A DNA stretch of 21,040 bases from NCBI RefSeq assembly GCF_000717715.1, contig NZ_JOAI01000074.1, forward strand, positions 1 to 21,040, given 5' to 3'. Each line of letters opens with the position of its first letter. Position 1 is the stretch's first letter. Shown here one piece after another: positions 545 to 20,113 of the stretch. The notes beneath the pieces are model-generated. The model did no database searches and had not been told where the DNA came from. It saw nothing but the letters and a program-made list of their open reading frames with translations. Position numbers and translations under genes: made by a program. This stretch comes from Streptomyces sp. NRRL B-24484 (lineage in GTDB: Bacteria > Actinomycetota > Actinomycetes > Streptomycetales > Streptomycetaceae).

Positions 545-612
545 GATCGAGTGGCCGGCCGGGGCGCCAACCCCTACCGACATGATAAGCATACCACATT
601 ATGGGCCTGATT
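545..612 (-). promoter_or_regulatory. Conserved promoter-hairpin element, copy 1
   Basis: Drives the PAPS-reductase-like gene. On the minus strand, the -10 TATGCT (588-593) sits in the extended form TGTGGTATGCT, followed by TATC, ATGTCGG and the hairpin (about 553-580; GGGG/CCCC closing a TTGGCG loop, with two mismatches farther out). This is one of the copies whose leader ATG is in frame with the gene. Confidence 0.85.
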
Positions 613-638
613 GAGGATGTGGGGTGCCCAGGTCGCCG

Positions 639-1256
639 TCAACGGGATCCCCACGGCCGCGCGCGCAACCAGCGCACCCTTCCGCCGGACCGCTCCTCGG
701 CCACCTGCCACCGCTGCGCCTGCAGGGCGGCGGTGACAGCCGCGGCCAGCTCGGCCTCGGCCTCCACCGCCTCCGCTGTGTCGACGAACGCCGGCCACCC
801 GCCGACCGGTCGGGCCCCGAGGAACGCGACGGGGAGCACGTCCACCGACACCGTCCGAGGCAACTGCGGCACCGACAGGCGAAACCCCACTCCCCCGCCC
901 TCCGGATCCACCAACGGCGCGCAGCCGGCGGCCGTCAGCACCAGGGCACAGGCCCGGACGTTGAGCCGTGCCCCCTGGCCCGGGCAGATCCCCAGCTCCT
1001 CGTCTGCCGGCCGCGACGGACCGCCGACAGCGAGGTTCGCGGCGATCCGTTCCGCCGCGAGGTGCTCGGCGACGGCCAGCCCCCGCTCGCTCAGCCGCAC
1101 GATCGAGCGCGGGTCACCGGGGCGCAAACGCTCCCCCAGCTCCAGGCGCACCAGGTCGTTGCGCACACGGGGCTGCGCGTCGACCCGGTGCCCCTCGTTG
1201 AAGACGGCGAAGCGCAGGGCCTCGCTCTGCTTCGCCGTCAGGTCCAGGTGATTCAT
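639..1256 (-). CDS. Hypothetical protein, possible winged-helix N-terminal region
   Basis: A 205-residue protein I do not recognise. The ATG at 1256 follows GGAG with a 7-nt gap; an open frame extends upstream but has no ribosome site. Residues about 7-66 look like a winged helix-turn-helix: a helical stretch, then RNDLVRLELGERL, then SIVRLSERGLAVAEHL, the 'recognition plus wing, L-S/T-E-x-G' pattern seen in many small regulators. The gene at 7065-7625 shows the same pattern (FRLTEAGRLAA). The C-terminal half is rich in Ala, Val and Glu, and ends with a basic RVRWLRARPWGSR tail. It is the only gene between the ParB-like gene and copy 1, has no conserved element of its own, and may depend on read-through from the ParB-like unit. 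DNA binding is a guess. Confidence 0.75.
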   Translation of the reverse strand: MNHLDLTAKQSEALRFAVFNEGHRVDAQPRVRNDLVRLELGERLRPGDPRSIVRLSERGLAVAEHLAAERIAANLAVGGPSRPADEELGICPGQGARLNVRACALVLTAAGCAPLVDPEGGGVGFRLSVPQLPRTVSVDVLPVAFLGARPVGGWPAFVDTAEAVEAEAELAAAVTAALQAQRWQVAEERSGGRVRWLRARPWGSR

Positions 1257-1417
1257 GGTGGGGCTCCGATCTCGGGATGGTTCACGGGGGCCGGCCGACC
1301 CCGGAGGCTCGGCTGGCGGCTTGCATTCGGCCGGACTACGCCCGCTACACTCAGAAGCGACTCCAGCCCTCTGTTCGGTGGTCTTCGACCCCGGCGGTGG
1401 TGGTTTGGATCGAGTGA

Positions 1418-1488
1418 GAGCGGCAGACTGAGCGCGCCAACGCCCCCGGAAACGGTGGCCACCCTCCGGGGTGGGCGGTCTGCCGCTC
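1418..1488 (-). terminator. Nested hairpin after the ParB-like gene
   Basis: An 11-bp perfect outer stem (GAGCGGCAGAC at 1418-1428 with its complement at 1478-1488) encloses a second stem (CCCCGGA/TCCGGGG, about 1444-1471). It lies 57 bases beyond the stop codon, in the intergenic space before the next gene, as a terminator or processing site would. There is no T tract. The spacer also holds GCGCCAA (1434-1440), and GATCGAGTG (1408-1416) lies beside it; both words occur in the conserved element, so this may include a decayed copy. Confidence 0.55.
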
Positions 1489-1544
1489 GCTGACTTTCCG
1501 GCCCCCGGGCTGGGCGCGGCCCCAGGGGACCGCGCCCGCACCCG

Positions 1545-3386
1545 TCAGGCGGCCAGCGCCCCCGGTCCGTCGTCCTCCTGGCCGGGAGCGTCCTCCTCGG
1601 TCGCAGCCCCGGCGGCGGGGTGCTCGGCGGACGCGCCTCCGGCCTGCACCTCCAGCGGGTCATCGTCGTCGGACACGTCCTCCTCCAGCTCTCCGCCGTC
1701 CGCGCCCTGGTCGTCGTCCTCGGCGTCCAGCAGCTCCCCGGATTCGGCGGCTGCGTCGGCGAGCGCCGCGTCCAGCTCCTTCTCGGCCTCCTCGTCACTC
1801 TTCTTGGCCTTCGCGGCGGCCTCCTGCTGCTTCGCCGTCACCTCGGCGATCAGCTCCTGCTCGCACGCGGCCAGGGTGTAGCCCTCACCGGCCAGGAACT
1901 CCAGCCAGCCAGCGGCGGCGTCGTCCGGGTTCCGCCACTTCATGTCATGCATCTCCTCCCGCTCGAACGCAGCCGCGACCTGGGCGAGCAGGATGAACGG
2001 TCGGCCCGGACGCCCGCGCCGCTTGACCACGTGGGCGAACGGCTCCTCGTCGCGCGGGTAGGTGGTCTTGGGCGCTTCGGTCTTCAGCAGCACGGCCAGC
2101 TCATCCAGCCGCCGCGACGACCCGTAGTAGCGGGCGAACCAGCGGGTGTTGCCGGACGTGGCGAGCATGATCCACGACCACGCGGCGTCCGAGACCTCCT
2201 TGGGCCCGTCCTTGCCCGGGTTGATCAGCCGGATCAGGAAGGCCCGCCGCGCGTCCCGGGCGGCCCGCCACGCCGCGTTGCCCTCGCGGACACGCCGCGC
2301 GTTGGCCTTCGCCGCCTCCTTGTCCTCCACCGGGTTCTTGGCAGCCTCCTCCGGCGAGAGGGTGTGGCCGTTGCCGGACCAGTCCTTGCAGGCGTACACC
2401 GGGCGGATCTTGTCGTGGTCGATGTAGGCGGCGTGGTCCGGGCACAGCTCCGCGTGCGCCTTCGGGGTCATCTTCTTCCCGGCCGGAGTCACCAGGTGCG
2501 ACAGCGGCCGAACCCGGCTGTTGCGGTCCCACGAGGCGTAGTGGACCACCGCGACTCCGGCCGCCTCCAGCTCCGCGACCAGCGCCGCGCGCCTGCGCTT
2601 CTCCTCCAGGTCCCGGCGCAGCCGCGCCATCGCCTGCTCCCAGTTGCCGCGCGACTTGTTGCCGCTGCGCGCATCCGCGCGCCGGGCCTCGCTCAGCGCC
2701 CGCTCGGCGTCCCAGCCCAGTTCCTCGACCTCGGCCAGGTCGGCCATCTCCACGAAGTCCCACCCGGCGGTGGAGTACTTGCTGAGGTTCTCGTCCTTGA
2801 GACCGCTGGCGCGCTGGGCGGCGGCGATCTCGGCGGGCTTGTACCCGAGTCGGCGGGCGTGCTTGGCCCGCTGGCCAGCCGGGATGTCCATCAGGGCGAG
2901 CTGGGTGAGCCCATCGGCCACGTCCCGCTGCGAGGACTGCACCCGCTGCATGTTCTCGATCATGGAGAGCACCAGGGTGTCGTCGTCGACCCCGGCCAGG
3001 TCCCGGCGCACCAGGACGGGGATCTTGCGGCGCGGCTTCTTCTTTCGGTCGGCCTCGCGGTTGGCCGCGAGCTGCGCCTTCCAGCGGCGCTGACCCTTGA
3101 AGATGCCGATCTTTCCGTCGGCCTGCGGTCGAGCGCCGACCGGCTCCTGGACGCCGATGTCCCGCACGGACGCCTTCAGGGTCGCGTCCGGCTCGGTGTC
3201 GATCTGCTTGCGGTGGTTGTACGCGTCGAGGACCAGGTCCTCGGGGTAGTGCCACTCCAGCTCGCCGATCGCGTGCGTCAGACCCCCCTCGGCATCGGCG
3301 GCCGGGTCCGGAGCGGTGGGCTGCAGCTCGGTGGTGGTCTCCTGCTCCGCGTCGGCGGGCGGGTTCTCGATGATGGTCGCGCTCAT
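1545..3386 (-). CDS. ParB/Spo0J-like nuclease-domain protein with acidic C-terminal tail
   Basis: A 613-residue protein with the ParB N-terminal signature: a YNHRK entry (about 56-60), the box II motif GQRRWKA (98-104), IPVLVR (122-127) and ENMQR (144-148), then a likely helix-turn-helix (about 172-197, AKHARRLGYKPAEIAAA). In this family box II binds CTP/phosphate and the HTH binds a DNA site. Beyond residue 250 it is unlike chromosomal ParB: a basic helix, a Cys/His cluster (C315, H318, C333, H341) that could hold zinc, and an acidic tail (about 540-595). It is about twice the length of a typical ParB, with no ParA gene beside it. Start: ATG at 3386 with GAAGGA 11 nt upstream; the frame stays open much farther but only by overrunning the leader element. 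A plasmid-borne transcription or segregation factor is the inference. Confidence 0.85.
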   Translation of the reverse strand: MSATIIENPPADAEQETTTELQPTAPDPAADAEGGLTHAIGELEWHYPEDLVLDAYNHRKQIDTEPDATLKASVRDIGVQEPVGARPQADGKIGIFKGQRRWKAQLAANREADRKKKPRRKIPVLVRRDLAGVDDDTLVLSMIENMQRVQSSQRDVADGLTQLALMDIPAGQRAKHARRLGYKPAEIAAAQRASGLKDENLSKYSTAGWDFVEMADLAEVEELGWDAERALSEARRADARSGNKSRGNWEQAMARLRRDLEEKRRRAALVAELEAAGVAVVHYASWDRNSRVRPLSHLVTPAGKKMTPKAHAELCPDHAAYIDHDKIRPVYACKDWSGNGHTLSPEEAAKNPVEDKEAAKANARRVREGNAAWRAARDARRAFLIRLINPGKDGPKEVSDAAWSWIMLATSGNTRWFARYYGSSRRLDELAVLLKTEAPKTTYPRDEEPFAHVVKRRGRPGRPFILLAQVAAAFEREEMHDMKWRNPDDAAAGWLEFLAGEGYTLAACEQELIAEVTAKQQEAAAKAKKSDEEAEKELDAALADAAAESGELLDAEDDDQGADGGELEEDVSDDDDPLEVQAGGASAEHPAAGAATEEDAPGQEDDGPGALAA

Positions 3387-3412
3387 GGCGATGCATGTCC
3401 TTCGAGGTCGTT

Positions 3413-3481
3413 GAATCGAGTGGCCGGAGGAGCGCCAACCCCTTCCGACAGAAAGAACTCTACCACATTTGAGAGCTGAAT
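3413..3481 (-). promoter_or_regulatory. Conserved promoter-hairpin element, copy 2
   Basis: Drives the ParB-like gene. The -10 is the poorest of the set, TAGAGT (3457-3462), and the usual ATGTCGG is CTGTCGG. The hairpin (about 3424-3447) has a G-T pair in the arm (loop-proximal GGGG against CTCC). If weaker initiation follows, this ParB-like gene would be the least expressed of the units; that is inference. Confidence 0.8.
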
Positions 3482-3786
3482 GCGCGTGTTGGGGTGTCAA
3501 TTCCGCAGGTGAAGACAGAATCTCCGACCATCGGGTATCCGCGCCGGCGAGGGGCTGAGCCGCGAGCCGCTCCCGCAGGCCGGCCGACACACCATGGCGG
3601 TGCCCGCGCCCCGGTGCCGCGCACCAGGGCAGAACTCCTATCCGCGCGTTCCGGGCCCGCCGTTGCTGCGTTCGGCCGTGCCGCCGACGGTGGGGCAGGA
3701 GGTGGGCAGGAAGTGGTTCGCCCGCCACGTCCACCCCGGCCCCAAGGACGGTGCCCGGCCTCTCCCTGGCGCCGCCCTGCCCCCGG
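3482..3786. other. 305-base intergenic stretch without a supported gene
   Basis: No open frame here has both a ribosome site and protein-like composition. On the minus strand TTGACA occurs at 3500-3495, but no acceptable -10 lies 16-18 bp downstream. A short imperfect inverted repeat (GGTGC...GCACC) lies in the middle. Most intergenic gaps in this window are under 110 bases, so this one is unusually long. Confidence 0.5.
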
Positions 3787-4263
3787 TCAGCGGTAGTCGG
3801 TGCAGGGGGCCAGCAGCCACGCCGGGTATGCCTGCGCAGGGGTCAGGCCGAGCGCGGCCAGCGCGGCGCGCAGCCGGCCGGCCCAGTCCTCGGCGCGCGC
3901 CCGCGCCTCGAGTTCGGCGAAGTCCACCGCTGCCCAGTGGCCGCGCTCCGCCTCGATCGAGTGCGCAGCGAGCACGTAGCTCGGGAAGTCCACGTGCCCA
4001 TGAACGACGATCCGCACGCCCTGGCGCTGCAACGCCTCCTCCTGCTGCCGCCATCGGGAGCCGCCGGTCGCAGGGTCCGGGGCGAATCCGGCCGCGGCGA
4101 GAAGGACCCGCTCGCCGGCCTCCTCCAGGGGCGTGCCGTCGTCCACCCTGGCCCAGTCCGCGAGGAGCGCGCCGTACGCGTCGACCTCGGCGACCTGCCA
4201 CCCGCTCTCGTCACCCCCCAGCGCGAAGCCGAAGTCGAGCCGGGCGTCTGTCCTCACGCTCAC
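3787..4263 (-). CDS. Hypothetical protein
   Basis: A 158-residue acidic protein, not recognised. The start is GTG at 4263, preceded by GGAAGG at 7 nt. The sequence alternates short strands and Ala-rich helices; residues about 82-100 (GVRIVVHGHVDFPSYVLAA) look like a buried beta strand plus turn, and the C-terminal third (115-142) is a helix rich in Ala, Leu, Glu and Arg. There is no signal peptide, membrane segment or metal motif. It lies 85 bases after the DUF3560 gene with a terminator-like hairpin between, and has no element of its own, so it is probably transcribed by read-through from copy 3. Confidence 0.8.
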   Translation of the reverse strand: MSVRTDARLDFGFALGGDESGWQVAEVDAYGALLADWARVDDGTPLEEAGERVLLAAAGFAPDPATGGSRWRQQEEALQRQGVRIVVHGHVDFPSYVLAAHSIEAERGHWAAVDFAELEARARAEDWAGRLRAALAALGLTPAQAYPAWLLAPCTDYR

Positions 4264-4308
4264 TGTGATGCCTTCCTGTACGTCTGGTCTGTTCGAACGC
4301 CACCGCCC

Positions 4309-4335
4309 GGGGGCCGGACTCGCAATCCGGCCCCC
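4309..4335 (-). terminator. GC hairpin after the DUF3560 gene
   Basis: A perfect 10-bp stem, GGGGGCCGGA (4309-4318) with its complement at 4326-4335 and a 7-nt loop, starting 13 bases beyond the stop codon. No T tract follows. Confidence 0.6.
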
Positions 4336-4348
4336 GGTCAGACCTCTG

Positions 4349-5806
4349 CTACTCGGTGTCGACGTCGGCCGCGCCGTGTTCTCCCCCCTCCCGCTGCCCG
4401 GCGAGGTGGGTGGCCATCTCCGCAGCCGACATGCGGCCGGTGATCTCGGAGTACGGGGCCGCTGCCGTCCGGCTGTCGGCCGCCGACCGGTCCACCACCA
4501 GCCCCGGGTTGTCCGGGTGCGGGACGGTGACGGTCTTCGCGTTCACCCGCACCACCTCGAACCACCGGCCCTTGTGGCGCAGGAAGTCACCCCGGACGAA
4601 GTCGCCCTTCTCCCATGTCCGCTCGCGGCGGGCCTCGGCCTCCTCGATGACCACGGCCCAGTGCTCCCGCTGGCGCGTGAGGTCATCGCGGCGGGCGGTC
4701 CACCGCTGGTGCTCCTCCGGCTGCCGCTCCAGATCGACGCCCGCGAGCGACTCCGAGACCTTCGCGATCTGCAGGCCCAGCGCCTCGGCGAGAAGCCGCG
4801 CCATCTCCTCGCCGCTCTTGCGGCCCTGGATGTCGTCGTAGGGGAAGTTCCACGTCCAGTCGAGGCGGGCGCCGACCTTCGTGACGACCGGCCCGTCGTT
4901 GTGGATGTGCGGCCCCGTCAGCGACTTCGCGTTGACCTTCAGCACCTCGTACCACTCGCCCCGCGACTTCAGGAAGTCGCCAGGCGCGAAGTCGTCGGAC
5001 CCCCAGACCTTGAAGCCGGCTTCCTCGGCCGCCTTCACCACACCCCGCCAGTACTCCAGCTGCTCCGTGATCTCGGCCCGGCGGGCCTCCAGCTGCGCAC
5101 GCTGCTCCGGGTACTTGTCCGGGTTCCAGCCCGACGAGCCCGTGCCCGCCAGGTTGCGCGCGTTGCGCCGCAGGGCGGCCTCAAGCTCCTTGATCCGGCG
5201 CAACGTCCGCCCCGGGTCCCGGCGGTACTCCTCGTACCCGGCCGCGGCTGCCGCCCGGTCCGCGTGGTACTCCGCCTTGCCCTTCTCGGCGATGCTGCGC
5301 CGCATCCCGTTGTCGATGCGCTCCAGGTCGCGCCGGTGGCGCCGCTCGCGGTGGTGCCCCACCAGGACCGGCTGACCGGACGGGATGCCGTCGCCGATGG
5401 CGCGGGCGGCCTGGTAGGCGGCGCCCGACCGGGCCGCCGCGTTGCCGCTGAGCTCCTCGTGCCGCTCGGCTCGGCCGGCGGCCCGCTCGTAGCGCTCCTG
5501 CTCGGCGTCGGCGAAGCTGCGCGTCTGGGTGTCGTCGACCTCGATGGTGACGGTGAACCGGCCGGTGGCCTCCAGGAGGGTCTTGGCGCGGTTGATTCGG
5601 TACATGTCGGCGCGGCTGTCGCGGGAGCGGCGCAGGGCGATCAGCTGGACCGACCGCATCCACGTGAAGCCGGCGCCGCGGGCGATCTCGTAGGCGCCGT
5701 CGCCCTTGCTGGAGCCTTCGAGGACGGTGCCGTCCTCCCAGGTGTGTCGGATGGTCAGCGACTTGGGCTCGGTGTTGTTCGGGGTCTCGGTGGTGCTGGT
5801 GATCAC
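4349..5806 (-). CDS. DUF3560 domain-containing protein with duplicated C-terminal module
   Basis: The 485-residue product has an N-terminal DUF3560 domain (about 16-175): LTIRHTWEDGTVLEGSSKGDG, FTWMRSVQLIALRRSRD, then a long Ala/Arg/Glu helix and SGQPVLVGHHRERRHRRD with RIDNGMRRSI. The family is common on actinobacterial plasmids and ICEs and has no established activity; its fold may act on nucleic acid. After a coiled region come two similar modules of about 110 residues (about 228-340 and 357-468), each with a helical lead, GDFL, a W/F-E-V core and VNAK-x-(L/V)-(T)-x-PH. Start: GTG at 5806, with GGAGGG 5 nt upstream. The stop of a leader reading frame from copy 3 overlaps this start (GTGA). 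Transcribed from copy 3; 4 kb from the left edge, upstream of the ParB-like gene. Confidence 0.88.
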   Translation of the reverse strand: MITSTTETPNNTEPKSLTIRHTWEDGTVLEGSSKGDGAYEIARGAGFTWMRSVQLIALRRSRDSRADMYRINRAKTLLEATGRFTVTIEVDDTQTRSFADAEQERYERAAGRAERHEELSGNAAARSGAAYQAARAIGDGIPSGQPVLVGHHRERRHRRDLERIDNGMRRSIAEKGKAEYHADRAAAAAGYEEYRRDPGRTLRRIKELEAALRRNARNLAGTGSSGWNPDKYPEQRAQLEARRAEITEQLEYWRGVVKAAEEAGFKVWGSDDFAPGDFLKSRGEWYEVLKVNAKSLTGPHIHNDGPVVTKVGARLDWTWNFPYDDIQGRKSGEEMARLLAEALGLQIAKVSESLAGVDLERQPEEHQRWTARRDDLTRQREHWAVVIEEAEARRERTWEKGDFVRGDFLRHKGRWFEVVRVNAKTVTVPHPDNPGLVVDRSAADSRTAAAPYSEITGRMSAAEMATHLAGQREGGEHGAADVDTE

Positions 5807-5835
5807 GGATGCCCTCCAGGGCGTGAGTGGTGGGT

Positions 5836-5902
5836 GATCGAGTGGCCGGGCGGGGCGCCAACCCCTTCCGACATAGAGAAGCATACCATATATGAGGCTT
5901 GC
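5836..5902 (-). promoter_or_regulatory. Conserved promoter-hairpin element, copy 3
   Basis: Drives the DUF3560 gene. The -10 is TATGCT (5880-5885) in the variant TATGGTATGCT; the ATG of ATGTCGG is one base farther from the -10 than in copy 1. Hairpin about 5846-5870. The reading frame opened by that ATG runs 23 codons and ends in TGA overlapping the gene's GTG. Confidence 0.85.
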
Positions 5903-5915
5903 TTGGGAGTGTGCG

Positions 5916-5948
5916 GATCCCGGCCGGCCGCGTCGGTCGGCCGGGATC
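5916..5948 (-). terminator. GC hairpin after the DUF3085-like gene
   Basis: A perfect 11-bp stem, GATCCCGGCCG (5916-5926) with its complement at 5938-5948 and an 11-nt loop, 6 bases past the stop. It separates this unit from copy 3 just downstream. Confidence 0.6.
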
Positions 5949-5954
5949 GCTTGG

Positions 5955-6362
5955 CTACTCGACCGCGAAGCCGAGCGAATCCGCGGTGACCTCCAGAAGG
6001 AAGCGGCGGCCGCGACCACTTCGCCCGTGGCTCTCGCGCAGCCACTCCAGCAGGGTGGCCGTACGGCCATCGGCCAGCTCGACGGGGCTGTCGACCGGGA
6101 TCATCTGCCCGAAGTCGTCGCCACCGACGGGCGTCTCGGCGAGAGCCTCGCCCGTTCCCGGGCCCCGGCCCTCGGCGTAGATGTCCGGCAGCTCGCTCGG
6201 GCGGCCGTTCGACGTGAGGAACGTTCCGTTCATCCGCGCCCAGACCAGGGCCGGGACGGGCGGGAGCCCGCCATACCCCTGGTGGGCGCTGGCGGTGGCG
6301 GCGTGCTCCGCCAGGGCGAGAACGGCGGAGAGATTGAAGCGCAGGGTGATGCGGTCGGCCAT
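5955..6362 (-). CDS. DUF3085-like protein
   Basis: A 135-residue protein that matches my memory of DUF3085, a small family of actinobacterial mobile elements: an N-terminal LRFNLSAVLALAEHA (7-21), then PALVWARMNGTFLTSNG (37-53), GRGPGT (66-71), and a GGDDFGQ motif (80-86). No activity is known for the family. ATG at 6362 follows GAGGAG with a 6-7-nt gap. It lies 79 bases after the preceding gene with a hairpin between, and has no element of its own, so it is likely the second gene of the copy 4 unit. The family assignment rests on pattern memory and should be confirmed with a profile search. Confidence 0.8.
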   Translation of the reverse strand: MADRITLRFNLSAVLALAEHAATASAHQGYGGLPPVPALVWARMNGTFLTSNGRPSELPDIYAEGRGPGTGEALAETPVGGDDFGQMIPVDSPVELADGRTATLLEWLRESHGRSGRGRRFLLEVTADSLGFAVE

Positions 6363-6382
6363 GGCGACTCCTCAAGTTCGGC

Positions 6383-6423
6383 GGGGCCGGTCCCGGGCGG
6401 CGGGCGCGCCGGGCACCGGCCCC
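6383..6423 (-). terminator. GC hairpin between two genes of one unit
   Basis: A 9-bp stem, GGGGCCGGT (6383-6391) with its complement at 6415-6423; the loop can pair further through CCCGG/CCGGG. It lies 18 bases past the stop of the upstream gene. Because no promoter element follows, it may be a processing or attenuation site rather than a full terminator. Confidence 0.5.
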
Positions 6424-6441
6424 GTGGTGTGCGAGCGCCGC

Positions 6442-6951
6442 TCAGGCGATGCGCGCGGGGGTGATCGCCTCGCGTCGCACGTTGCGCAGCACGGGAATGC
6501 CGTCCTGGCTGAGCAGGACGTACTGGACGTCGTCCTTGTCGCACTTCTCGCACTCGCACACGTCGGCCAGGTACAGGGCCCGGTACTCGCGGTGCTCGCC
6601 GTGGTACATCACCAGCTCACCTGGCCAGATCGGCCCGGCCTCCTGCAGCTCCCTGGCGATCTCCTCGAACGCCCCGTCGGAGAAGGCCGGGTTGTCGGGG
6701 GCGTCGTCAGTGTCCGGCTCGGCGGGCTCCGGCGTCACGTCCTCCCAGCCGCGCCCCCAGGCGAAGGCCGTCAGGGAGGTGCTCTCCCACTCGGCGGCGT
6801 CGTCGGCCCGGGTGATGAAGCCGTGGGCGTGCGGTTCGCGCGTCACGGGATGGCAGGACACCGTGTCGCAACGGAAGATCTGGGCGATCGCCGTGGGGTC
6901 GTCGGCGCGTGCGTATGTGCGGCCGGGCTCGAAGAAGGCGGACGGGTTCAT
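6442..6951 (-). CDS. Hypothetical protein with CxCxxC cluster
   Basis: A 169-residue acidic protein. The N-terminal part (about 6-75), starting FFEPGRTYARAD with FRCDTVSCHP and later AFAWGRGWE, resembles small actinophage and plasmid proteins that begin F-x-P-GRTY and have no assigned role. The middle (about 72-95) is acidic and likely disordered. The C-terminal part (108-169) holds VMYHGEHREYRALYLADVC and CECEKC (132-137), then VQYVLLSQDGIPVLRNVRREAITP. The cysteines C28, C33, C132, C134 and C137 could bind metal. ATG at 6951 with GGAG 7 nt upstream. First gene of the copy 4 unit. Confidence 0.85.
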   Translation of the reverse strand: MNPSAFFEPGRTYARADDPTAIAQIFRCDTVSCHPVTREPHAHGFITRADDAAEWESTSLTAFAWGRGWEDVTPEPAEPDTDDAPDNPAFSDGAFEEIARELQEAGPIWPGELVMYHGEHREYRALYLADVCECEKCDKDDVQYVLLSQDGIPVLRNVRREAITPARIA

Positions 6952-13134: not shown

Positions 13135-13139
13135 GGCGG

Positions 13140-14581: not shown

Positions 14582-14630
14582 GGTGGGGCTCCGTGTCGTG
14601 GGGTCGGGGTCGAGCGCCAGGAGGGAAATC

Positions 14631-14661
14631 CCGGGGCTGCGCCGGGCGGGCGCAGCCCCGG
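14631..14661 (-). terminator. 12-bp hairpin within the copy 12 unit
   Basis: A perfect 12-bp stem (14631-14642 with 14650-14661) with a 7-base loop, 7 bases past the stop of the 14669-15025 gene and upstream of the GP88-type gene. Confidence 0.6.
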
Positions 14662-14668
14662 CGGTCGG

Positions 14669-15025
14669 TCAGGCGACGGTGAGGCAGACGTGCGGGCACA
14701 TCGGGTCGGCCAGCTGGTCGGCCAGCGCCAGGGCGTGCTGCGCCGCCTGCCGCTCCGCGAACGTTCGGCCCTCCTCGTTCAGCCCGCTGCCGACGGCCAG
14801 GAGCAGCGCCAGCGACTCGGCCATCAGCTCCTCGGTCAGCACCAGGGCGCCCTTCCCCTTGAGCTGCTCGCGCAGCGCGCGGTGGTCGGCCTCCTGCTCC
14901 GGGTCGGCCGCGATCACCACGCCCGTCGCCGGGCGCAGCGCGCGCAGCAGCGCGGTCCGCAGGGTGAGCCCGCGCCAAGCGGTCTCGGTGCGCAGGGCGT
15001 CGGGGTCGACAACGGCAATGTTCAT
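14669..15025 (-). CDS. Hypothetical small helical protein
   Basis: A 118-residue protein, mostly helical and rich in Ala and Leu. ATG at 15025 with AAGGA 8 nt upstream. It starts MNIAVVDPDALRTET, then LTLRTALLRALRPATGVVIAADPEQEADHRALREQLKG and a long helix (about 62-108; ELMAESLALLLAVGSGLNEEGRTFAERQAAQHALALADQL), ending with CPHVCLTVA, where C110 and C114 could pair. Not recognised. First gene of the copy 12 unit, ahead of the GP88-type gene. Confidence 0.8.
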   Translation of the reverse strand: MNIAVVDPDALRTETAWRGLTLRTALLRALRPATGVVIAADPEQEADHRALREQLKGKGALVLTEELMAESLALLLAVGSGLNEEGRTFAERQAAQHALALADQLADPMCPHVCLTVA

Positions 15026-15044
15026 GGGGTCCGTCCTTGGGTGA

Positions 15045-15118
15045 GTGAATCGAGTGGCCGGGTGGGGCGCCAACCCCTTCCGACATAAAGAAGTATACCA
15101 CAACTGCGCTCTGATTGG
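15045..15118 (-). promoter_or_regulatory. Conserved promoter-hairpin element, copy 12
   Basis: Drives 14669-15025 and the GP88-type gene. -10 TATACT (15092-15097). Hairpin about 15057-15081; the distal part of the 3' arm is altered (CCCCACCC), so the outer stem is weaker. Confidence 0.85.
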
Positions 15119-15148
15119 TGCCGTGTTGGCCCCCGCTGCACCCGCCCA

Positions 15149-15745
15149 CTATCGCCCGGACGGCCGCCCGCCGGCGGTCTTCTTGCGCTTCGCCTCCCGC
15201 TCTCGCGCACGCTCGACCTGCTGCGCCTCGCTGAGCAGCCGCACCCGACCCGAGTAGCGCAGCTGGTAGCCGTCCTGGAAGCTGTCCGATCCGTCCCGCT
15301 GGTACGCGTCGTAGATCAGCTCCAGCGTCTCCAGCAGCGCCGCCGCCTCGCGCCCGTACAGCGAGCCGGCCGGACGCTCGGCGTTCAGGAAGGCGTCGGT
15401 CAACCCGGAGACGTCCACCAGGATTCCGTACCCCGAACCGCACCGGACCGAGATGCGCAGGCGTGCCGGGATCACGCCGCGGTCCCGGGCCTGCCGGTAG
15501 TCGGCCCGGATCCTGGCTGCGACCTGAACCTCCCGCTCGCCGTCGCTGCGCCGGTACTTCGGGCCGAACACGACCCGGCCCACGCTCGCGCCGTCGGCGG
15601 TCACCATTCCCCGTCGGCTGCGCCAGCGGCCGTCGACATACCGGGTGATGAACCGGCCGGGGCGGGCCTGGGTGATGGTGTGCAGCCGGTAGCCGGCCGG
15701 GGCGGCCTCGCGGGCGCGCTCGCGGGCCTCGTGGTGGGTGAGCAT
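15149..15745 (-). CDS. LPD29-like protein, divergent third copy
   Basis: A 198-residue basic protein. The N-terminal part (about 5-65) is RLHTITQARPGRFITRYVDGRWRSRRG-like. The C-terminal part follows the same order as the tandem pair at 7765-9157: VAARIRADYRQARDRG (75-90), LRISVR (96-101), a GYGILVDV strand, a helix EAAALLETLELIYDAYQRDGSDSFQDGY (about 133-160), and a strand (RYSGRVRLLSE). The DUF2786-type helices of the pair are absent. It ends in a lysine/arginine-rich tail (180-198). ATG at 15745 with GAGGA 7 nt upstream. Third gene of the copy 14 unit. Family call is from the order of motifs, not a search. Confidence 0.8.
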   Translation of the reverse strand: MLTHHEARERAREAAPAGYRLHTITQARPGRFITRYVDGRWRSRRGMVTADGASVGRVVFGPKYRRSDGEREVQVAARIRADYRQARDRGVIPARLRISVRCGSGYGILVDVSGLTDAFLNAERPAGSLYGREAAALLETLELIYDAYQRDGSDSFQDGYQLRYSGRVRLLSEAQQVERAREREAKRKKTAGGRPSGR

Positions 15746-15778
15746 GCTCGGGTCCTCGTCTCGGGGTGATGGCGGGGG

Positions 15779-15804
15779 CCGGGGGCGGCGGGTGCCGCCC
15801 CCGG
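15779..15804 (-). terminator. 11-bp hairpin within the copy 14 unit
   Basis: A perfect 11-bp stem (15779-15789 with 15794-15804) with a 4-base loop, 10 bases past the stop of 15815-16405. Confidence 0.6.
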
Positions 15805-15814
15805 CGCGGGGCGG

Positions 15815-16405
15815 TCAGAAGCGGCGGTGCGACGCGGGCGGCCGGTAGGGCTGCGGGTCGGACACGGTCGACGTCCCGTCGGCGTGCACCGTGATCGTGG
15901 TGACCTTGGGGCCGCGCTCCACCCGTGCGCGGCGGTCGAGCTCCTGCTGCCACGCCTCCTCGGTGGCCCGGAACTCCACGGCCTGGCGGACGGCCTGGTC
16001 CTCGGCGGCCTGCGCACCCGAGTAGTACGAGTCGGTCAGTTCCTCGTACACCTTGTGCAGCTGCGCCGTCTCGGGGGTGCTGAGTTCCCCCTGTTCCTCG
16101 GCGATGCGCAGGATCGACCGCCACGCGCAGGTGAGCGCGCTCACCGTGACGTCGGCGTCCGCCGCCTCTCGGCCGTACTCGTTCAGCGTCGGGCGGTGCG
16201 CCGCGTTCCCGGCGGCCGTCAGCGCCTTGCGGGCCTGGCGGACGACGACGGCGGCCAGGCGTCGGGCCTCGGCGAGCTCGGCGGGTGGCAGCCAGTCGGC
16301 TGGGGCGGAGGGGACGCGGTCGGCGGCGCGGCGGCTGGTGCGCTCGGCGCGCTCGGCGTCGGCCTGCCACTGCTCGCGGGTCGGCCAGGCGATGGCACGG
16401 GGCAT
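15815..16405 (-). CDS. Hypothetical helical protein
   Basis: A 196-residue protein, largely alpha-helical and rich in Ala, Glu and Arg, with a probable coiled region (about 40-65, ELAEARRLAAVVVRQARKALTAAG; 112-165, ending ELDRRARVERG). The last 30 residues hold a strand pair (VTTITVHADGTSTV) and a basic end. ATG at 16405 with GGAGG 5 nt upstream. Immediately upstream, at 16459-16478, is the hairpin-only remnant of the conserved element (copy 13), so this gene may have its own 5' hairpin without a promoter beside it. Not recognised. Confidence 0.8.
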   Translation of the reverse strand: MPRAIAWPTREQWQADAERAERTSRRAADRVPSAPADWLPPAELAEARRLAAVVVRQARKALTAAGNAAHRPTLNEYGREAADADVTVSALTCAWRSILRIAEEQGELSTPETAQLHKVYEELTDSYYSGAQAAEDQAVRQAVEFRATEEAWQQELDRRARVERGPKVTTITVHADGTSTVSDPQPYRPPASHRRF

Positions 16406-16445
16406 GGATGCCTCCAAGGGGTGGGGCCCCGGGTGGGGGCCGGTC

Positions 16446-16480
16446 GGATCGAGCGGGGGGAGGAGCGCCAACTCCTCCGG
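16446..16480 (-). repeat. Hairpin-only remnant of the conserved element, copy 13
   Basis: The GATCGAG tail and the hairpin (GGAGGAG, 16459-16465, with complement 16472-16478, loop cgccaa on the plus strand) are intact, but upstream there is no extended -10 or ATGTCGG. The arms differ from the usual GGGG/CCCC at matching positions on both sides, so the stem survives changed in sequence. Confidence 0.8.
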
Positions 16481-16495
16481 TGGGCGGGTCGGCCT

Positions 16496-16527
16496 CCGGT
16501 GCGCGGCCACGGGCGGCCGCGCACCGG
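16496..16527 (-). terminator. 13-bp hairpin after the 16537-16863 gene
   Basis: A perfect 13-bp stem (16496-16508 with 16515-16527) with a 6-base loop, 9 bases past the stop and upstream of copy 13. Confidence 0.6.
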
Positions 16528-16536
16528 GGGGACCGG

Positions 16537-16863
16537 CTAGAACTTGGGCTGTAGGGGGCGCAGCAGAAGCGGGAGGAGCGCCGGGTCGAGGTCGCCGCCC
16601 TCCAGCGGGATCGGCTCGCCGTCCTCGCCCACCGCCAGGACGGTCACGCGCACCGGTCGGCTGTCGCGCAGCGACCGGCCGCCCTGGCCGATCTCGACCT
16701 CCAGCCGCAGGCGCACCGGCTGCCGGGTGCCCGTCTGGATGTTGCCTGCCATCAGTTCCAGGAGATCCGTGGAGCTTGCCCGGTCGAGCGGCCGCGTGGT
16801 GCGCGCCCAGCGGCAGGTGTCGCAGGGGCAGCCGATCCAGTGCAGACCGTGGGGGTGGAACAT
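16537..16863 (-). CDS. Hypothetical small protein with CxCxxC near N terminus
   Basis: A 108-residue protein. It opens MFHPHGLHWIGCPCDTCRWAR, with C12, C14 and C17 (CxCxxC) and three nearby His (H3, H5, H8), so a metal site is plausible. A strand-rich middle follows (VRLRLEVEIGQGG; VRVTVLAVGEDGEPIPLEGG, 50-90) and a leucine-rich end (LDPALLPLLLRPLQPKF). ATG at 16863 with GGAGG 5 nt upstream; the copy 14 leader reads in frame into it. First gene of the copy 14 unit. Not recognised. Confidence 0.82.
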   Translation of the reverse strand: MFHPHGLHWIGCPCDTCRWARTTRPLDRASSTDLLELMAGNIQTGTRQPVRLRLEVEIGQGGRSLRDSRPVRVTVLAVGEDGEPIPLEGGDLDPALLPLLLRPLQPKF

Positions 16864-16881
16864 GTGTGCCTCCGTGGTGGT

Positions 16882-16951
16882 GGGTCGAGTGGCCGGGGGA
16901 GCGCCAACCCCTCCCGACATGAGAAGCATACCACAATTCAACGCCGATTCA
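16882..16951 (-). promoter_or_regulatory. Conserved promoter-hairpin element, copy 14
   Basis: Drives 16537-16863. -10 TATGCT at 16925-16930. The hairpin (about 16891-16917) has a G-T pair where the 3' arm reads CTCC. The leader ATG is in frame with the gene. Confidence 0.87.
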
Positions 16952-16958
16952 ACGTATC

Positions 16959-17594
16959 TTAGCTGGCGGGCAGGGACGAACGGTCGCGGGCGCCTTCGTC
17001 GACCACGGCGACGGGGAACGGCAGTCCGTAGTGGCGGGCCAGGCATTTCACCGCCCCCGCCGCGTCGGAGTCGCCCACCCATACAGCCCCGCCCGCGTGG
17101 TCGGCGGCCTCGTAGCGAGCGCTGGCGTGGGTGGCCAGGAACCGGAGCGTCCCGCCGATCTCCGGCCAGCCGTCGAAGCTGACCGAACGGCGGAACTCCT
17201 CGGGGCTGCCGACCCTGCGCAGCCGGGCCACGCTCTGGGGTTCGGACGGCACCGGCACCCGCACGTAGGTCTGCGAGCTGCCGGGGTTGACGATCTGCAG
17301 GCCGCGGGCGCGCAGGTGCTCCCGGTCACCGCGGATCAGCTCGTCCCACTCGTCGCGGGCCCGCCCCGCGCGGGAGGGGCGCAGGTAGTGCCCGCCCATG
17401 ATCCGCTGGACGGCCACCCCCTGGTCCCAGGGGACGGCGTGCCAGCCGTCGGCCGCTTCGTGCGGGACGGCCGGGGCGCGCTCGGCCATGATCGCCTCCA
17501 CGGCCCGGACGTCCCAGGGCTTCGCACCGGGGGCGGGTCGGAAGGGCGCAGCCTCGGCGCCGGGGGTTTCAGCGGCTGCGGGGTGCGGGGGCAT
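16959..17594 (-). CDS. Hypothetical protein, paralogue of 18434-19063
   Basis: The 211-residue product belongs to the same family as the one at 18434-19063. Shared blocks: FRPAPGAKPWDVRAV (18-32), DREHLRARGLQ (90-100), VRVPVPSEPQSVARLRRVGSP (111-131), FDGWPEIGGTLRF (140-152), YEAADH (161-166) and HYGLPFPVAVV (188-198). The first 16 residues and the last 12 look disordered. No catalytic motif is evident. ATG at 17594 with GGAG 7 nt upstream. Third gene of the copy 15 unit; its stop is about 30 bases upstream of the copy 14 promoter, with no hairpin between. Confidence 0.83.
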   Translation of the reverse strand: MPPHPAAAETPGAEAAPFRPAPGAKPWDVRAVEAIMAERAPAVPHEAADGWHAVPWDQGVAVQRIMGGHYLRPSRAGRARDEWDELIRGDREHLRARGLQIVNPGSSQTYVRVPVPSEPQSVARLRRVGSPEEFRRSVSFDGWPEIGGTLRFLATHASARYEAADHAGGAVWVGDSDAAGAVKCLARHYGLPFPVAVVDEGARDRSSLPAS

Positions 17595-17631
17595 GGGCGG
17601 ACTCCTCGTCTGGGTTCGGTCGGGGTGGGGC

Positions 17632-17661
17632 GGCCGGCCGGGCGGATGGGCCCGGCCGGCC
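17632..17661 (-). terminator. 12-bp hairpin between 17761-17970 and 16959-17594
   Basis: A perfect 12-bp stem (17632-17643 with 17650-17661) and a 6-base loop. Unusually it lies 100 bases past the preceding stop; the space from 17662 to 17760 holds no gene I can support. Confidence 0.5.
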
Positions 17662-17760
17662 CGGGTGCGCGGCGCCAGCAGTTGATGACCTGGACGGCGC
17701 GCTGCGCGTTGGCCCTGGGGATTGGGTGGTCCCGGCCACGTGCCGCCGCTCGGGGCGGAA

Positions 17761-17970
17761 TCAGTCAGTGCCGGGGTGGGCGACGTCGGTGGTGATGGCG
17801 TCGGCGTCCACGTCGATGCCGAGGTCGGCGAACCACTGGGTGAGGGCGTCGACGACGTCGCCGCCGTTCCAGCCGCCGCTGTCGTCCTCGATGTACTCCT
17901 TGATGCCGTTGAATAGGTCGACGATCTCGGCGCCCTCGGGGGTCGACGGGTCGAACTTCAGGTTGTGCAC
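17761..17970 (-). CDS. Hypothetical small acidic protein
   Basis: A 69-residue, strongly acidic protein (DPSTPEGAEIVDLFNGIKEYIEDDSGGWNGGDVVDALTQWFADLGIDVDAD). Helices about 12-28 and 38-50 are separated by a Gly/Asn turn; there is no Cys, no hydrophobic segment and no basic surface. Small acidic proteins on mobile elements often mimic DNA or bind a host protein, but nothing here shows that. GTG at 17970 with AAGGGA 6 nt upstream. Middle gene of the copy 15 unit. Confidence 0.78.
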   Translation of the reverse strand: MHNLKFDPSTPEGAEIVDLFNGIKEYIEDDSGGWNGGDVVDALTQWFADLGIDVDADAITTDVAHPGTD

Positions 17971-18025
17971 GGGGTTTCCCTTCTCGGGGCGGTGCGCGGA
18001 TGCGGTCGTGGTGGATGTTCCGGGT

Positions 18026-18046
18026 GGGGCGCCTGGTCGACGCCCC
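18026..18046 (-). terminator. Weak hairpin after the 18089-18382 gene
   Basis: A 6-bp stem GGGGCG/CGCCCC (18026-18031 with 18041-18046) with a 9-base loop, 42 bases past the stop. Weaker than the other hairpins and of uncertain meaning. Confidence 0.3.
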
Positions 18047-18088
18047 CATAGCGCTCAGAACAGGCAGAGTTCAGCGTCGCCGCGCCCG

Positions 18089-18382
18089 TCAGGAGGTGCG
18101 CAGCCGTCGGCTGCTGTACATCCGGTAGGTGAACGTCCGGTCGCCGAGCTGGGGGATGGTCACCTTGAGCTCCTGCTCGGCTCGGATCAGCGTGATGCCG
18201 TCCCACGCCTCCGCCGATCCTGCGATCCGGACGGCGAGGTTCTCGACCGTGCTGCGGCACCCGTTGTGGTCCGTGGCCTGCGACCATCCGGCCGCCTCGG
18301 CCCACTCCGCTACCAGCCTCGCCGCCGCGTTGCCTCGGACGACGTGGTCGCTGCCGCTGATCTTCTCCGTGTGGCGGTCCAT
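18089..18382 (-). CDS. Hypothetical small protein
   Basis: A 97-residue protein. ATG at 18382 with GGAG 8 nt upstream; the frame is open through the element but only by overrunning the leader. The N-terminal half is helical (NAAARLVAEWAEAAGWSQ, 18-35); the second half is strand-rich (NLAVRIAGSAEAWDGITLIRAEQELKVTIPQLGDRTFTYRMYSS). One Cys (C42). First gene of the copy 15 unit, where the hairpin half of the element has been lost. Not recognised. Confidence 0.8.
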   Translation of the reverse strand: MDRHTEKISGSDHVVRGNAAARLVAEWAEAAGWSQATDHNGCRSTVENLAVRIAGSAEAWDGITLIRAEQELKVTIPQLGDRTFTYRMYSSRRLRTS

Positions 18383-18389
18383 GGTGGAG

Positions 18390-18446
18390 GCTCCCTCGTT
18401 CGCGCCTGCCAACAGAAAGAAGCATACCACATTTCAGGTTCGATTG
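18390..18446 (-). promoter_or_regulatory. Promoter-only variant of the conserved element, copy 15
   Basis: The extended -10 (TGTGGTATGCT, -10 at 18421-18426) and the following TTCTTTCTG are intact, but the hairpin is gone: CTG runs directly into TTGGCAGGCGCG, as if the 5' arm TCGGAAGGGG had been deleted. The stop of 18434-19063 lies inside this element, two bases before AATGTGG. Confidence 0.85.
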
Positions 18447-19063
18447 GTGGCGTGGTGCGGGTTGCTTCGCGGGATGACTCGCACGGGGAGGGGCAGGCCG
18501 TAGTGATGGGTCAGCGCCGCGACCGCCTCGGCTGCCTCCGTGAACCGTTCGGGCGCAGCCTGGCCCAGGTGGTCGGCCACCTCGTAGGCGCCGAGCGGGT
18601 CGCCCGGGTGGTAGCGCAGCATGCCGCCGATGCCCGGAAACCCTTCGAAGTCGATTCGGGTGGTGAGAGCGGTCGGGGGCCCGACGCGCCGCGCTGTCGC
18701 CGTGGACTGCGGGCGGTCGGGCGCGGGGACGTGCACCACGGTCCGGTCGCCCTCGGCGAACAGAACCGGGATGCCGTGGGCGGCCAGGTGCGCCCGATCG
18801 GCGCGCAACGCCTCGTCCCACCGCTGCTGTTCGGCGCCCGGCGCCTCCGGACGCTGGAACTCCCCGCCGGCGGCGCGGTGGACCGCCACCGCGTCCCGGC
18901 CCTCCTCGACCAACCACCACCCGTCCCGGCCGCTCGCCGCCGGCGGGCACAGGCCGCTCATGACCCGCGCCACCGCCCGGACGTGCCAGGGGGTGGCACC
19001 CGGGGCGGGCCGGAACTCCTCGGCCGTCTCCACGGTGCCGGTCGGCTGCTCCACGGTCTGCAT
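18434..19063 (-). CDS. Hypothetical protein, paralogue of 16959-17594
   Basis: The 209-residue product shares with its paralogue FRPAPGATPWHVRAVARVM (17-35), DRAHLAAHG, VHVPAPDRPQSTATARRVGPP, FEGFPGIGGMLRYH, YEVADH and THHYGLPLPVRVI. The N-terminal 15 residues and the last 10 differ. ATG at 19063 has AAGGAG 8 nt upstream. It is the last gene of the copy 16 unit. Its stop falls within promoter copy 15, so no terminator separates the units. Family not recognised; no catalytic residues evident. Confidence 0.84.
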   Translation of the reverse strand: MQTVEQPTGTVETAEEFRPAPGATPWHVRAVARVMSGLCPPAASGRDGWWLVEEGRDAVAVHRAAGGEFQRPEAPGAEQQRWDEALRADRAHLAAHGIPVLFAEGDRTVVHVPAPDRPQSTATARRVGPPTALTTRIDFEGFPGIGGMLRYHPGDPLGAYEVADHLGQAAPERFTEAAEAVAALTHHYGLPLPVRVIPRSNPHHATNRT

Positions 19064-19141
19064 GGTCTCGTCTCCTTGGTCGATGGTCGGTCGGGGCGGC
19101 GCAGTCGGCGCGGCTGCGTCACCCCCGTTCGCTCGGTGCGG

Positions 19142-19453
19142 CTAGAACAAAGCGGCCGTCTCGCCCGGGCCGCCGTGCTCGGGGGACTCGAACAGCCCGG
19201 ACTGGTGGGACGTGATGGCGTGCCCGAACTGGCGGGGCGTCATCTGCGACCAACTCGGCACCGGCCCGGCGCCGGACTCCGGGTCCGCCCGGCGGGCGGG
19301 CTGCTCCGGCTGCTCGTAGGTCGCCAACAGCAGCAGCGAGGATGCCGCGGGGACCGGGCCCGGCACTGGCCGCGCCGGACGGGCGTGGGTCGGCAGGACA
19401 TCGAACAGCGGCGCGGCCTGGGCGTCCGGCTGGACACTGCGTCGGCGGGTCAC
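19142..19453 (-). CDS. Hypothetical small protein with N-terminal LFD motif
   Basis: A 103-residue protein, low in secondary structure and rich in Pro, Ala and Arg. APLFDVLP (14-21) lies near the N terminus, and GLFESPEH (86-93) and a final ETAALF are nearby. A hydrophobic LLLLATYEQ (40-48) may be a strand. GTG at 19453 with GAGGAG 6 nt upstream. Middle gene of the copy 16 unit. Not recognised; the layout suggests a linear peptide-containing adaptor, which is speculative. Confidence 0.72.
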   Translation of the reverse strand: MTRRRSVQPDAQAAPLFDVLPTHARPARPVPGPVPAASSLLLLATYEQPEQPARRADPESGAGPVPSWSQMTPRQFGHAITSHQSGLFESPEHGGPGETAALF

Positions 19454-19497
19454 GGGTCTCTCCTCAGTTGTCCGGGGTGCGTCCGGGGCACGGGGGA

Positions 19498-19520
19498 GGG
19501 GCGGGCCGGCGGCCCGCCCC
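19498..19520 (-). terminator. 10-bp hairpin within the copy 16 unit
   Basis: A perfect 10-bp stem (19498-19507 with 19511-19520) with a 3-base loop, 9 bases past the stop of 19530-20024. Confidence 0.55.
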
Positions 19521-19529
19521 GGGCGGGGA

Positions 19530-20024
19530 TCAGTCCCAGTTCTGCGGGGCCGGGCGGTACAGCCGGTCGAACCGCTCGCGCTCCTCGTCGGTCGCGCGCC
19601 GCCAGTTGGCCACCTTCTCCTCCAGGGACATGAACACGGAGTCGTCAACCCCCTCGCGGTGCCCGTCCCACGACTCGTAGGTGAAGAACCGGCCGTACTG
19701 GGTGCTGATGCCGGTGATCCGCACGGTGGCGGCGCCGTCGCGCAGATCCCACGACACGTAGTCCCCGACGCTCCACCCCAGCAGCTGTGCCCGGACCGGC
19801 TCCGGCTGCTCCTGGCCGCGCTCCAGCACCGACCGGAAGGCGCCGGAGAGGCGGCCCAACTGCTCGGCGCGGCGCTCCTCGTCCAGCGGGCAGGGGGTGG
19901 CGGGGCGCTCGTCCTCGTCGGCCAGCTTGCACCAGCACGACCGGGTGACCTTGTTGAGGTCCACCACGAAGTAGAACGGGCCCTCCTCGACGGTGTCGAC
20001 GATCTCGAAAATCTGGTGCTCCAT
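19530..20024 (-). CDS. Hypothetical protein
   Basis: A 164-residue acidic protein. ATG at 20024 with a strong GGAGGA 6 nt upstream. It begins EHQIFEIVDTVEEGPFYFVVDLNKVTRSCWCKLADEDERPATPCPLDEE; C30, C32 and C45 are close. A helix follows (RRAEQLGRLSGAFRSVLERGQ), then QLLGWSVGDYVSWDLRDGAATVRITGISTQYGRFFTYESWDG (80-121), which reads as a small beta domain, and a charged C-terminal helix (EEKVANWRRATDEERERFDRLY). Not recognised. First gene of the copy 16 unit. Confidence 0.82.
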   Translation of the reverse strand: MEHQIFEIVDTVEEGPFYFVVDLNKVTRSCWCKLADEDERPATPCPLDEERRAEQLGRLSGAFRSVLERGQEQPEPVRAQLLGWSVGDYVSWDLRDGAATVRITGISTQYGRFFTYESWDGHREGVDDSVFMSLEEKVANWRRATDEERERFDRLYRPAPQNWD

Positions 20025-20043
20025 GGCGATTCCTCCAAAGTTC

Positions 20044-20113
20044 CGATCGAGTGGCCGGGAGGGGCGCCAACCCCTTCCGACATGAGAAGCATACCACAAT
20101 ATGGCACCGTTTT
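20044..20113 (-). promoter_or_regulatory. Conserved promoter-hairpin element, copy 16
   Basis: Drives 19530-20024 and two further genes. -10 TATGCT at 20088-20093. Hairpin about 20054-20079, with one A-C mismatch. It starts directly beside the terminator hairpin of the upstream gene (20114-20150). Confidence 0.88.

Follow-up and report, generated by a model that had tools for sequence, protein, structure and literature searches.

The stretch of DNA considered here, called the window in what follows, is the whole of contig C74 (NZ_JOAI01000074.1; 21,040 bp) of Streptomyces sp. NRRL B-24484, whose draft genome comprises 8.86 Mb in 186 contigs. Ahead of its genes the window repeats an element of about 60 bp, in which a predicted promoter with an extended -10 is followed by a hairpin and a short conserved tail. 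The G+C content is 69-75% across the window in 1-kb blocks, no tRNA genes were found in the window, and the minus strand carries every plausible gene. There are 14 full copies of the element, one copy consisting of the promoter only and one consisting of the hairpin only, all on the gene strand:

541-599, minus: full element; -10 at 588-593, predicted +1 G at 581, tail from 551; gene 68-520 probably starts at GTG 520
3410-3468, minus: full element heading the ParB-like gene, ATG 3386
5832-5891, minus: full element heading the DUF3560 gene, GTG 5806
6971-7029, minus: full element with a perfectly paired stem; gene start ATG 6951
7639-7696, minus: full element; gene start GTG ~7625
8422-8479, minus: full element; gene start ATG 8397, the first of two tandem-duplicated genes
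9177-9235, minus: full element; gene start GTG 9157, the second of the two duplicated genes
10699-10760, minus: full element; its stem is longer and has a U-A pair at a position that is U-G or C-G in others; gene start GTG 10680
11832-11891, minus: full element; gene start TTG 11811
12688-12747, minus: full element; gene start GTG 12672
13684-13743, minus: full element with the best score of all copies; gene start ATG 13664
15044-15103, minus: full element; gene start ATG 15025
16443-16478, minus: hairpin and tail without a -10 (promoterless), preceding gene 15815-16405
16879-16936, minus: full element; gene start ATG 16863
18394-18432, minus: promoter-only copy, which retains an intact extended -10 and has lost the hairpin and tail
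20041-20099, minus: full element; gene start ATG 20024

The core TGTGGTATGCT, allowing up to two mismatches, is matched 15 times in the window, with 14 matches on the minus strand and a single one on the plus strand, compared with a mean of 1.4 and a maximum of 5 in 100 shuffles. The 14 minus-strand matches are element sites, the promoter-only copy among them; the copy at 3.4 kb differs from the core at three positions and hence stands outside the 15. Over 64 aligned columns covering promoter, hairpin and tail, the mean column identity of the 14 full copies is 83%. An invariant G follows the -10 at 6-7 nt in each of these copies, and 53-66 nt downstream of this G comes a plausible start codon; two copies have a weak Shine-Dalgarno match (3 of 5). 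Taken from the 15 promoter copies, the window would hold 15 transcription units.

Two other readings of the hairpin half were rejected. A leaderless leader peptide beginning at ATGTCGG would require a conserved ATG, which is CTG, TTG or ACG in 4 of the 14 copies, and a constant frame, which shifts with the stem length. An intrinsic terminator would require a T-run, which is missing, and positions 1041-21040 contain no terminator-like site.

Pfam searches of 29 window proteins recognised ParB_N, DUF3560 and GP88, plus a sub-threshold LPD29. The three recognised genes recur in the 16 element arrays that were examined:

1545-3386, minus: ParB-like protein, 613 aa (ParB_N, 31.2 bits against a cut-off of 26.3); in 15 of 16 arrays
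4349-5806, minus: DUF3560 protein; in 6 of 16 arrays
13754-14581, minus: GP88-family protein; in 7 of 16 arrays

The tandem-duplicated genes lie at 7768-8397 and 8540-9157 (repeats D6-D8, with stretches 75-93% identical) and have one element each; this gene duplication is one route by which copies of the element multiply.

Predicted promoter and start of the transcript

An earlier note, made from the letters of the window, had placed the element upstream of genes, with an extended -10 and nothing conserved at -35. These points hold: the 14 full copies precede start codons on the minus strand, where the two partial copies lie too, TG is found at -15/-14 in 13 of the 14 full copies, and no -35 is conserved within the window. 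A consensus promoter scan of the window yields just one site because the -35 is poor. By their sequence, the copies correspond to a sigma-70-type extended -10 (TGnTATnnT-like, with a purine start 6-8 nt downstream). On other replicons the -10 hexamers are sigma-70-like, for example TATAGT or TACTAT, most of them extended by TG, and several copies on contig C69 of genome G016 have TTG-type -35 boxes as judged by eye. The promoter half looks like a housekeeping, sigma-70-type promoter with an extended -10, for which an alternative sigma factor is not needed, and the invariant G is the most likely start of transcription.

The earlier note had offered an extended -10, an activator or an alternative, possibly element-encoded, sigma factor as the means of recognition. 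Reading of these promoters by an element-encoded sigma factor would suit the weak -35 in the window, the replicon-specific wording of the -10 and the presence of a sigma-70 family gene on two S. anulatus plasmids, where it lies ~6-9 kb beyond the transfer genes. Against this stand the sigma-70-like hexamers, the TG in 13 of 14 window copies and the TTG-type boxes, and no sigma gene is recognised in the window by Pfam. Thus, the extended -10 of that suggestion is retained, and the alternative sigma factor appears very unlikely.

Copies on related replicons

A covariance model was built from the 14 window copies (R1), together with two broader models (R2 and R3); the E-values of these models, which were made in this analysis, are rough. 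In the same genome, R1 detects four further copies of the same type on contig C62, two weaker matches on C32, a set on C73 that has diverged, and a doubtful match on C44. Beyond this genome, it detects sets on G016:C69 and on NZ_CP107965, a plasmid of Kitasatospora sp. NBC_00374. Matches of R2 or R3 are present in 18 of 394 genomes of the family and in 19 of 293 genomes of the order, the genome of the window included in both, and a class-wide sample of 394 genomes contains four positives (again with this genome), all from the family to which the window belongs. Applied to 33 loci, R2 gives 169 matches, including three duplicates due to overlap between loci; no locus has matches on both strands, a rule for which loci with a single match are uninformative. 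This one-strand rule on other replicons is stronger evidence for orientation than the window itself.

A repetitive extragenic palindromic (REP) or miniature inverted-repeat transposable element (MITE) that had been inserted before genes by chance would also be present in many copies per replicon, and the tandem-duplicated window genes, each with its element, could be seen in this light. The fixed phase to the start codons and the single strand per locus are at odds with such a mobile repeat, which we regard as the most improbable of the explanations considered.

Searches for a known counterpart were negative within their scope. Rfam, run on the window at E up to 1, returned three matches, all far below the gathering score and none at the elements, and run on three other arrays (L044, L046 and L078) it returned none at the gathering score. 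No description of the element was found in the open-access papers searched, subscription papers being mostly outside the search. Strict-pattern scans of viral and genome contig collections gave no match. Five other plasmid loci chosen for their GP88 homologues, and the F region, have no element match. A phage origin of the element was rejected, since viral contigs have no match to one strict pattern and the ParB-like protein has no match in the phage collection. As a separate observation, the GP88-family protein at 13754-14581 has relatives in Streptomyces phage Gilgamesh (51%) and in many mycobacteriophages, with 281 phage records in total.

These searches bear on the remaining statements of the earlier note. 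Its view that no described family matches agrees with Rfam and with the open-access papers searched, and the profile that it proposed, once built from the 14 copies, finds more sets on related replicons. Of copies inside genes or in random orientation, which, if in the majority, it had named as evidence against itself, two instances are described below (L047:1224-1280 and contig G778:C98). Its dispersed regulon under one shared switch is supported. The first reading therefore stands as to the regulon and the extended -10; it missed the promoterless copies, the RNA covariation, the replicon-specific wording and the establishment-type block.

Regarding the wording, the element differs between replicons in both of its flanking parts. 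Identity in the promoter columns is 76% within and 60% between replicons, and that in the tail columns is 73% and 57%, respectively. The tail reads CUCGAUCC in the window, CCUUCGAACC on C73 of the same genome, CUCAACCCG on G016 and UCGAACCGC on NBC_00374. We compared 96 pairs of homologous genes that are headed by the element on different replicons, 95 of which have replicon siblings. In 88 of these 95 pairs the element is nearer to its replicon siblings than to the element of the homologue (mean 0.758 versus 0.605). In one pair the proteins are 94% identical over 173 residues, and the promoter and tail are only 53% identical. Since homologous genes bear the local version, captured genes either have the local leader already or gain it. 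The simplest explanation of such local wording is a replicon-specific trans-acting factor.

The hairpin as a sense-strand RNA element

For the analysis of pairing we used alignment A3, which contains the best 150 of the 169 R2 matches, or 147 distinct copies, fitted to the model structure; the copies are mutually related, and the permutation counts given here are not strict probabilities. In the 147 copies 87% of cells pair, 177 cells show a double (compensatory) change compared with 59 in shuffles, and double changes are present in 9 of the 10 stem pairs. These pair counts lean towards the model to which A3 was fitted; therefore, the 3' arms were swapped among copies of the same replicon group. 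The own arms fold better than swapped arms in all four groups (3, 0, 0 and 0 of 5000 permutations reach the observed mean). This swap test leans less on the model, with 63 of 67 copies parsed, four dropped and at least one misparsed row kept (L046:6649). The 14 window copies alone have six double-change cells versus 2.0 in shuffles (0 of 500 shuffles), a modest signal, as only two pairs are double-changed and 96 of 500 shuffles match this.

The kind of mismatch distinguishes the two strands. G-U cells number 124 and A-C cells 34, with 157 and 85 in shuffles; when one bulge-side pair is omitted, the numbers are 111 and 14, with 145 and 62 in shuffles. Both kinds are below the shuffled values and it is their ratio that counts. 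This excess of G-U over A-C favours a structure of the sense strand rather than a DNA palindrome, and, as the covariation shows, the hairpin is a sense-strand RNA element. It forms a covarying cis-RNA family for which the Rfam searches give no counterpart. The loop is UGGC in 130 of the 147 copies and CGGC in 10, and the stem has ~11 pairs, the first paired base being the invariant G in most copies. Downstream, a frame of at least 40 aa starts within 110 nt in 147 of 147 copies and in 143 of 147 the Shine-Dalgarno sequence is matched at 4 or more of 6 positions, both counted without a chance control. A pseudoknot between loop and tail was rejected by reasoning, since the tail directly follows the stem and could hardly span ~11 pairs.

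The hairpin also occurs without a promoter. Scanning 20 array loci for a UGGC- or CGGC-loop hairpin followed by the family tail, a Shine-Dalgarno sequence and a start codon gave 61 copies at which a promoter is indicated and at least 25 at which it is not, using tail patterns that were written after the data had been seen. A looser earlier count (56 with and 30 without a promoter) was too high in promoterless copies because its pattern missed some promoters. In 114 kb of non-array control sequence there is no hairpin with a tail. Of the promoterless copies, 20 of 25 lie just after the stop codon of the upstream frame; their stems are stronger (-28.7 versus -16.0 kcal/mol) and their distance to the start codon is similar (37 versus 32 nt). 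Given this position between cistrons, the stem-loop and tail would act on the cistron below, and a primary 5' end is therefore not required. On a replicon of genome G257 (L093 and L094), twelve UGGC hairpins without a -10 were seen, mostly with long perfect stems between cistrons.

The same results bear on two other explanations of the hairpin. First, it might be a DNA operator downstream of the promoter, bound by a replicon-encoded repressor in the manner of Reg of p576 or KorB of RK2, with the ParB-like protein as the repressor. Indeed, 15 of the 16 arrays have the ParB-like gene, which in the window has a copy of the element ahead of it, and replicon-specific wording suits a trans-acting factor. 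However, the arms covary rather than keep the letters of half-sites, an excess of G-U over A-C is not expected from DNA symmetry, promoterless copies lie between cistrons, and the dual motif of p576 is absent from the window (TTATCCCnnTTATCCC, no match with up to three mismatches). An operator is therefore unlikely.

Second, the hairpin might be passive, a structure at a primary or processed 5' end that protects the mRNA from decay or presents the ribosome site with no dedicated factor. In most window copies the predicted +1 is the first base of the stem, and the stronger promoterless stems are what a processed 5' end might need. This explanation, which is doubtful though less so than the operator, leaves without a reason the UGGC loop, the replicon-specific tail and the local version on homologous genes.

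Gene neighbourhood and a possible establishment regulon

The genes near the element were compared among the arrays. On G016:C69 the element directly heads an ArdC gene, and the arrays include methyltransferase, PAPS reductase and SSB-domain genes, which are followed by Replic_Relax and an AAA_10 ATPase, presumably of the VirB4-like family. On C62 of the window genome (G000:C62), a Mom-family gene (L043:12145-13197, Pfam E 5e-28) lies between window-type elements. An integrase gene (L043:9508-10728) lies nearby, as do genes of metabolism, aconitase and transaldolase among them, and the element on C62 may be integrated in the chromosome. On C32, two window-type elements precede successive genes, the first of which has a sub-threshold SSB match, and Replic_Relax follows; therefore, the window is probably part of a conjugative element.

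On annotated plasmids, ArdC, DUF3560, ParB and methyltransferase genes are among those headed directly by the element. Anti-restriction, SSB, methyltransferase and ParB-like genes cluster across the related arrays (ArdC, SSB, PAPS reductase, methyltransferase, ParB-like), with the SSB match over the cut-off on C69 and below it on two other arrays, and only ParB-like, DUF3560 and GP88 are recognisable within the window. Replic_Relax or conjugal-transfer genes follow the arrays. On plasmids NZ_CP107965, NZ_CP108590, NZ_CP086103, NZ_CP108666 of S. globisporus and NZ_CP108410 of Kitasatospora, matches up to E 0.1 are confined to the array, and the transfer-gene stretches examined contain none at this level.

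The ParB-like protein of the arrays, found in 15 of 16, has ~600 aa. PDB profile searches, and Foldseek with the predicted fold, match it to Spo0J, Noc and KorB. In sequence and predicted fold it shares the N-terminal region of the ParB, KorB and Noc type of plasmid protein, and its link to the element is that of a candidate. An hhalign comparison with the 652-aa ParB-like protein of the F leading region gives a probability of 95.8% (E 8e-9, 141 columns), against 0.2% for a SopB control. We consider it a candidate for the trans-acting factor or for a core establishment gene. The family also has invariant H311, C315, C333 and H341, a possible metal site beyond the ParB fold.

In the light of these neighbours, we hold it somewhat probable that the elements are the shared leader of an establishment regulon, of the leading-region type, of a conjugative replicon, and we conclude that the element represents an undescribed family of establishment-regulon leaders. 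Each full copy would be a housekeeping-type promoter with an extended -10, and the RNA would start at the invariant G, the first paired base of the UGGC stem-loop of ~11 pairs, after which come the short tail, presumably single-stranded, and the Shine-Dalgarno sequence. A factor, probably encoded by the replicon, would recognise the loop and tail and set the translation or stability of all these mRNAs jointly. The genes could then be expressed in a burst on entry into a cell that lacks the factor and be held down later.

A sharper form can be put forward tentatively, in which the replicon-encoded factor reads the hairpin and tail on every establishment cistron, with its own promoter or within an operon, and represses or activates it post-transcriptionally. 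If true, the entry and anti-defence genes would all be expressed at once in a cell without the factor. Each replicon lineage would have a private code, and a captured gene could be used only once placed under the local leader. Such a system would be the post-transcriptional equivalent of the establishment switches that use repressors or single-stranded promoters.

Several points weigh against the establishment reading, in addition to the limits of the pair counts, the swap test and the window-only signal given with those results. An RNA-binding protein was not identified, and the assignment of the block to an establishment region follows gene content and neighbourhood, not an origin of transfer (oriT). 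The likeness of copies within a replicon may come from duplication or gene conversion, with no dedicated factor. Because all window genes are on the minus strand, the orientation of the element within the window alone is weak evidence. At L047:1224-1280 (G016:C69), the element lies within an open frame that joins GNAT and methyltransferase domains, with the methyltransferase start following it, which may be a gene fusion over the leader or a lost stop. Contig G778:C98 has matches in both orientations, ~135 kb apart.

The distribution adds further points of this kind. R1 is positive in only 3 of 70 genomes of the genus, that of the window included. Among four further ParB-carrying plasmids, NZ_CP109573 has a single weak match (E 0.036) and NZ_CP109216 has one match at 8e-4 and weak ones besides; weak matches outside the array occur in L055 (E 0.34) and L053 (E 0.99). 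Most element-headed genes, including most in the window, have no known function, and PADLOC returned nothing for nine window proteins or for the Mom-like protein of C62.

Three described systems were compared with the element. The nearest in kind are EGeRS1 and EGeRS2, of the pLS20 family and p576, respectively, in which one regulatory sequence is repeated before clustered establishment operons, including ardC; EGeRS1 is described as 420-750 bp with several inverted repeats, heavily structured and without a constitutive promoter, and EGeRS2 as a strong promoter whose dual TTATCCC operators serve a ribbon-helix-helix repressor (PMC8708921). By sequence, the predicted promoters with an extended -10 at 15 window sites resemble the sigma-A/70-type promoter of EGeRS2. 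Unlike both sequences as described there, the element has ~60 bp, an extended -10 with one UGGC hairpin and up to about two dozen copies per replicon, and also occurs without a promoter. Its length, single hairpin and promoter-like sequence set it apart from EGeRS1.

Frpo (ssi) of F-like leading regions is a promoter formed in the folded single strand, and its repeated hairpins precede genes of the leading region, among them those for SSB, methyltransferase and anti-restriction functions (PMC11541004). Promoters of this type, active on the entering strand, would explain why the same kinds of gene (SSB-like, ParB-like, methyltransferase, anti-restriction) are preceded by many copies here, as in F-like leading regions. 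In the element, by contrast, the conserved hairpin is downstream of the -10, the -35 and -10 lie outside it, and their pairing equals that of the shuffled control (0.554 versus 0.566, higher in 72 of the 147 copies), so a Frpo-type promoter is highly improbable.

The SAS and ESAS of cluster K mycobacteriophages comprise 17-bp repeats and a 13-bp sequence, GGGATAGGAGCCC, near the start codon; like the element, they are dispersed and combine a promoter, an inverted repeat and a conserved sequence at the start codon, with subcluster-specific wording of the repeat and a function reported as unknown (PMC3203893, PMC11373665). Unlike the element, which is found on conjugative replicons, they are found on phages and have different sequences. 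In the window, GGGATAGGAGCCC has one match with two mismatches, which is not above chance (mean 0.86).

For Streptomycetaceae conjugative replicons, the element would serve as a compact, searchable marker of establishment regions, whose genes are mostly annotated as hypothetical, and the genes under it are candidates for anti-defence functions. End-first transfer into the recipient has been proposed for linear plasmids. In 26 of 32 Streptomycetaceae plasmid records (~7 expected) the ParB-like gene is found within 20 kb of one end of the record, and 24 of these 26 genes read inward; at least one of the 32 records is circular, and therefore the record end is not always a telomere. Such an end-proximal, inward-reading block offers a handle on how linear plasmids enter the recipient. 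Elements also lie less than 20 kb from the end of an 8.5-Mb, chromosome-sized contig (L089, G375), where they read inward.

Further observations concern the gene blocks themselves. The window proteins encoded at 16959-17594 and 18434-19063 cluster with ArdC by single linkage, and Pfam finds nothing in them. Plasmids NZ_CP108060 and NC_023284 (L079 and L082) have similar, mostly unidirectional gene blocks beside Replic_Relax and ParB genes; no element match was found in either, and these blocks may use another regulatory sequence. Finally, a tRNA-Ala gene lies on the opposite strand within the element array of G031:C12 (L086:14960-15056).

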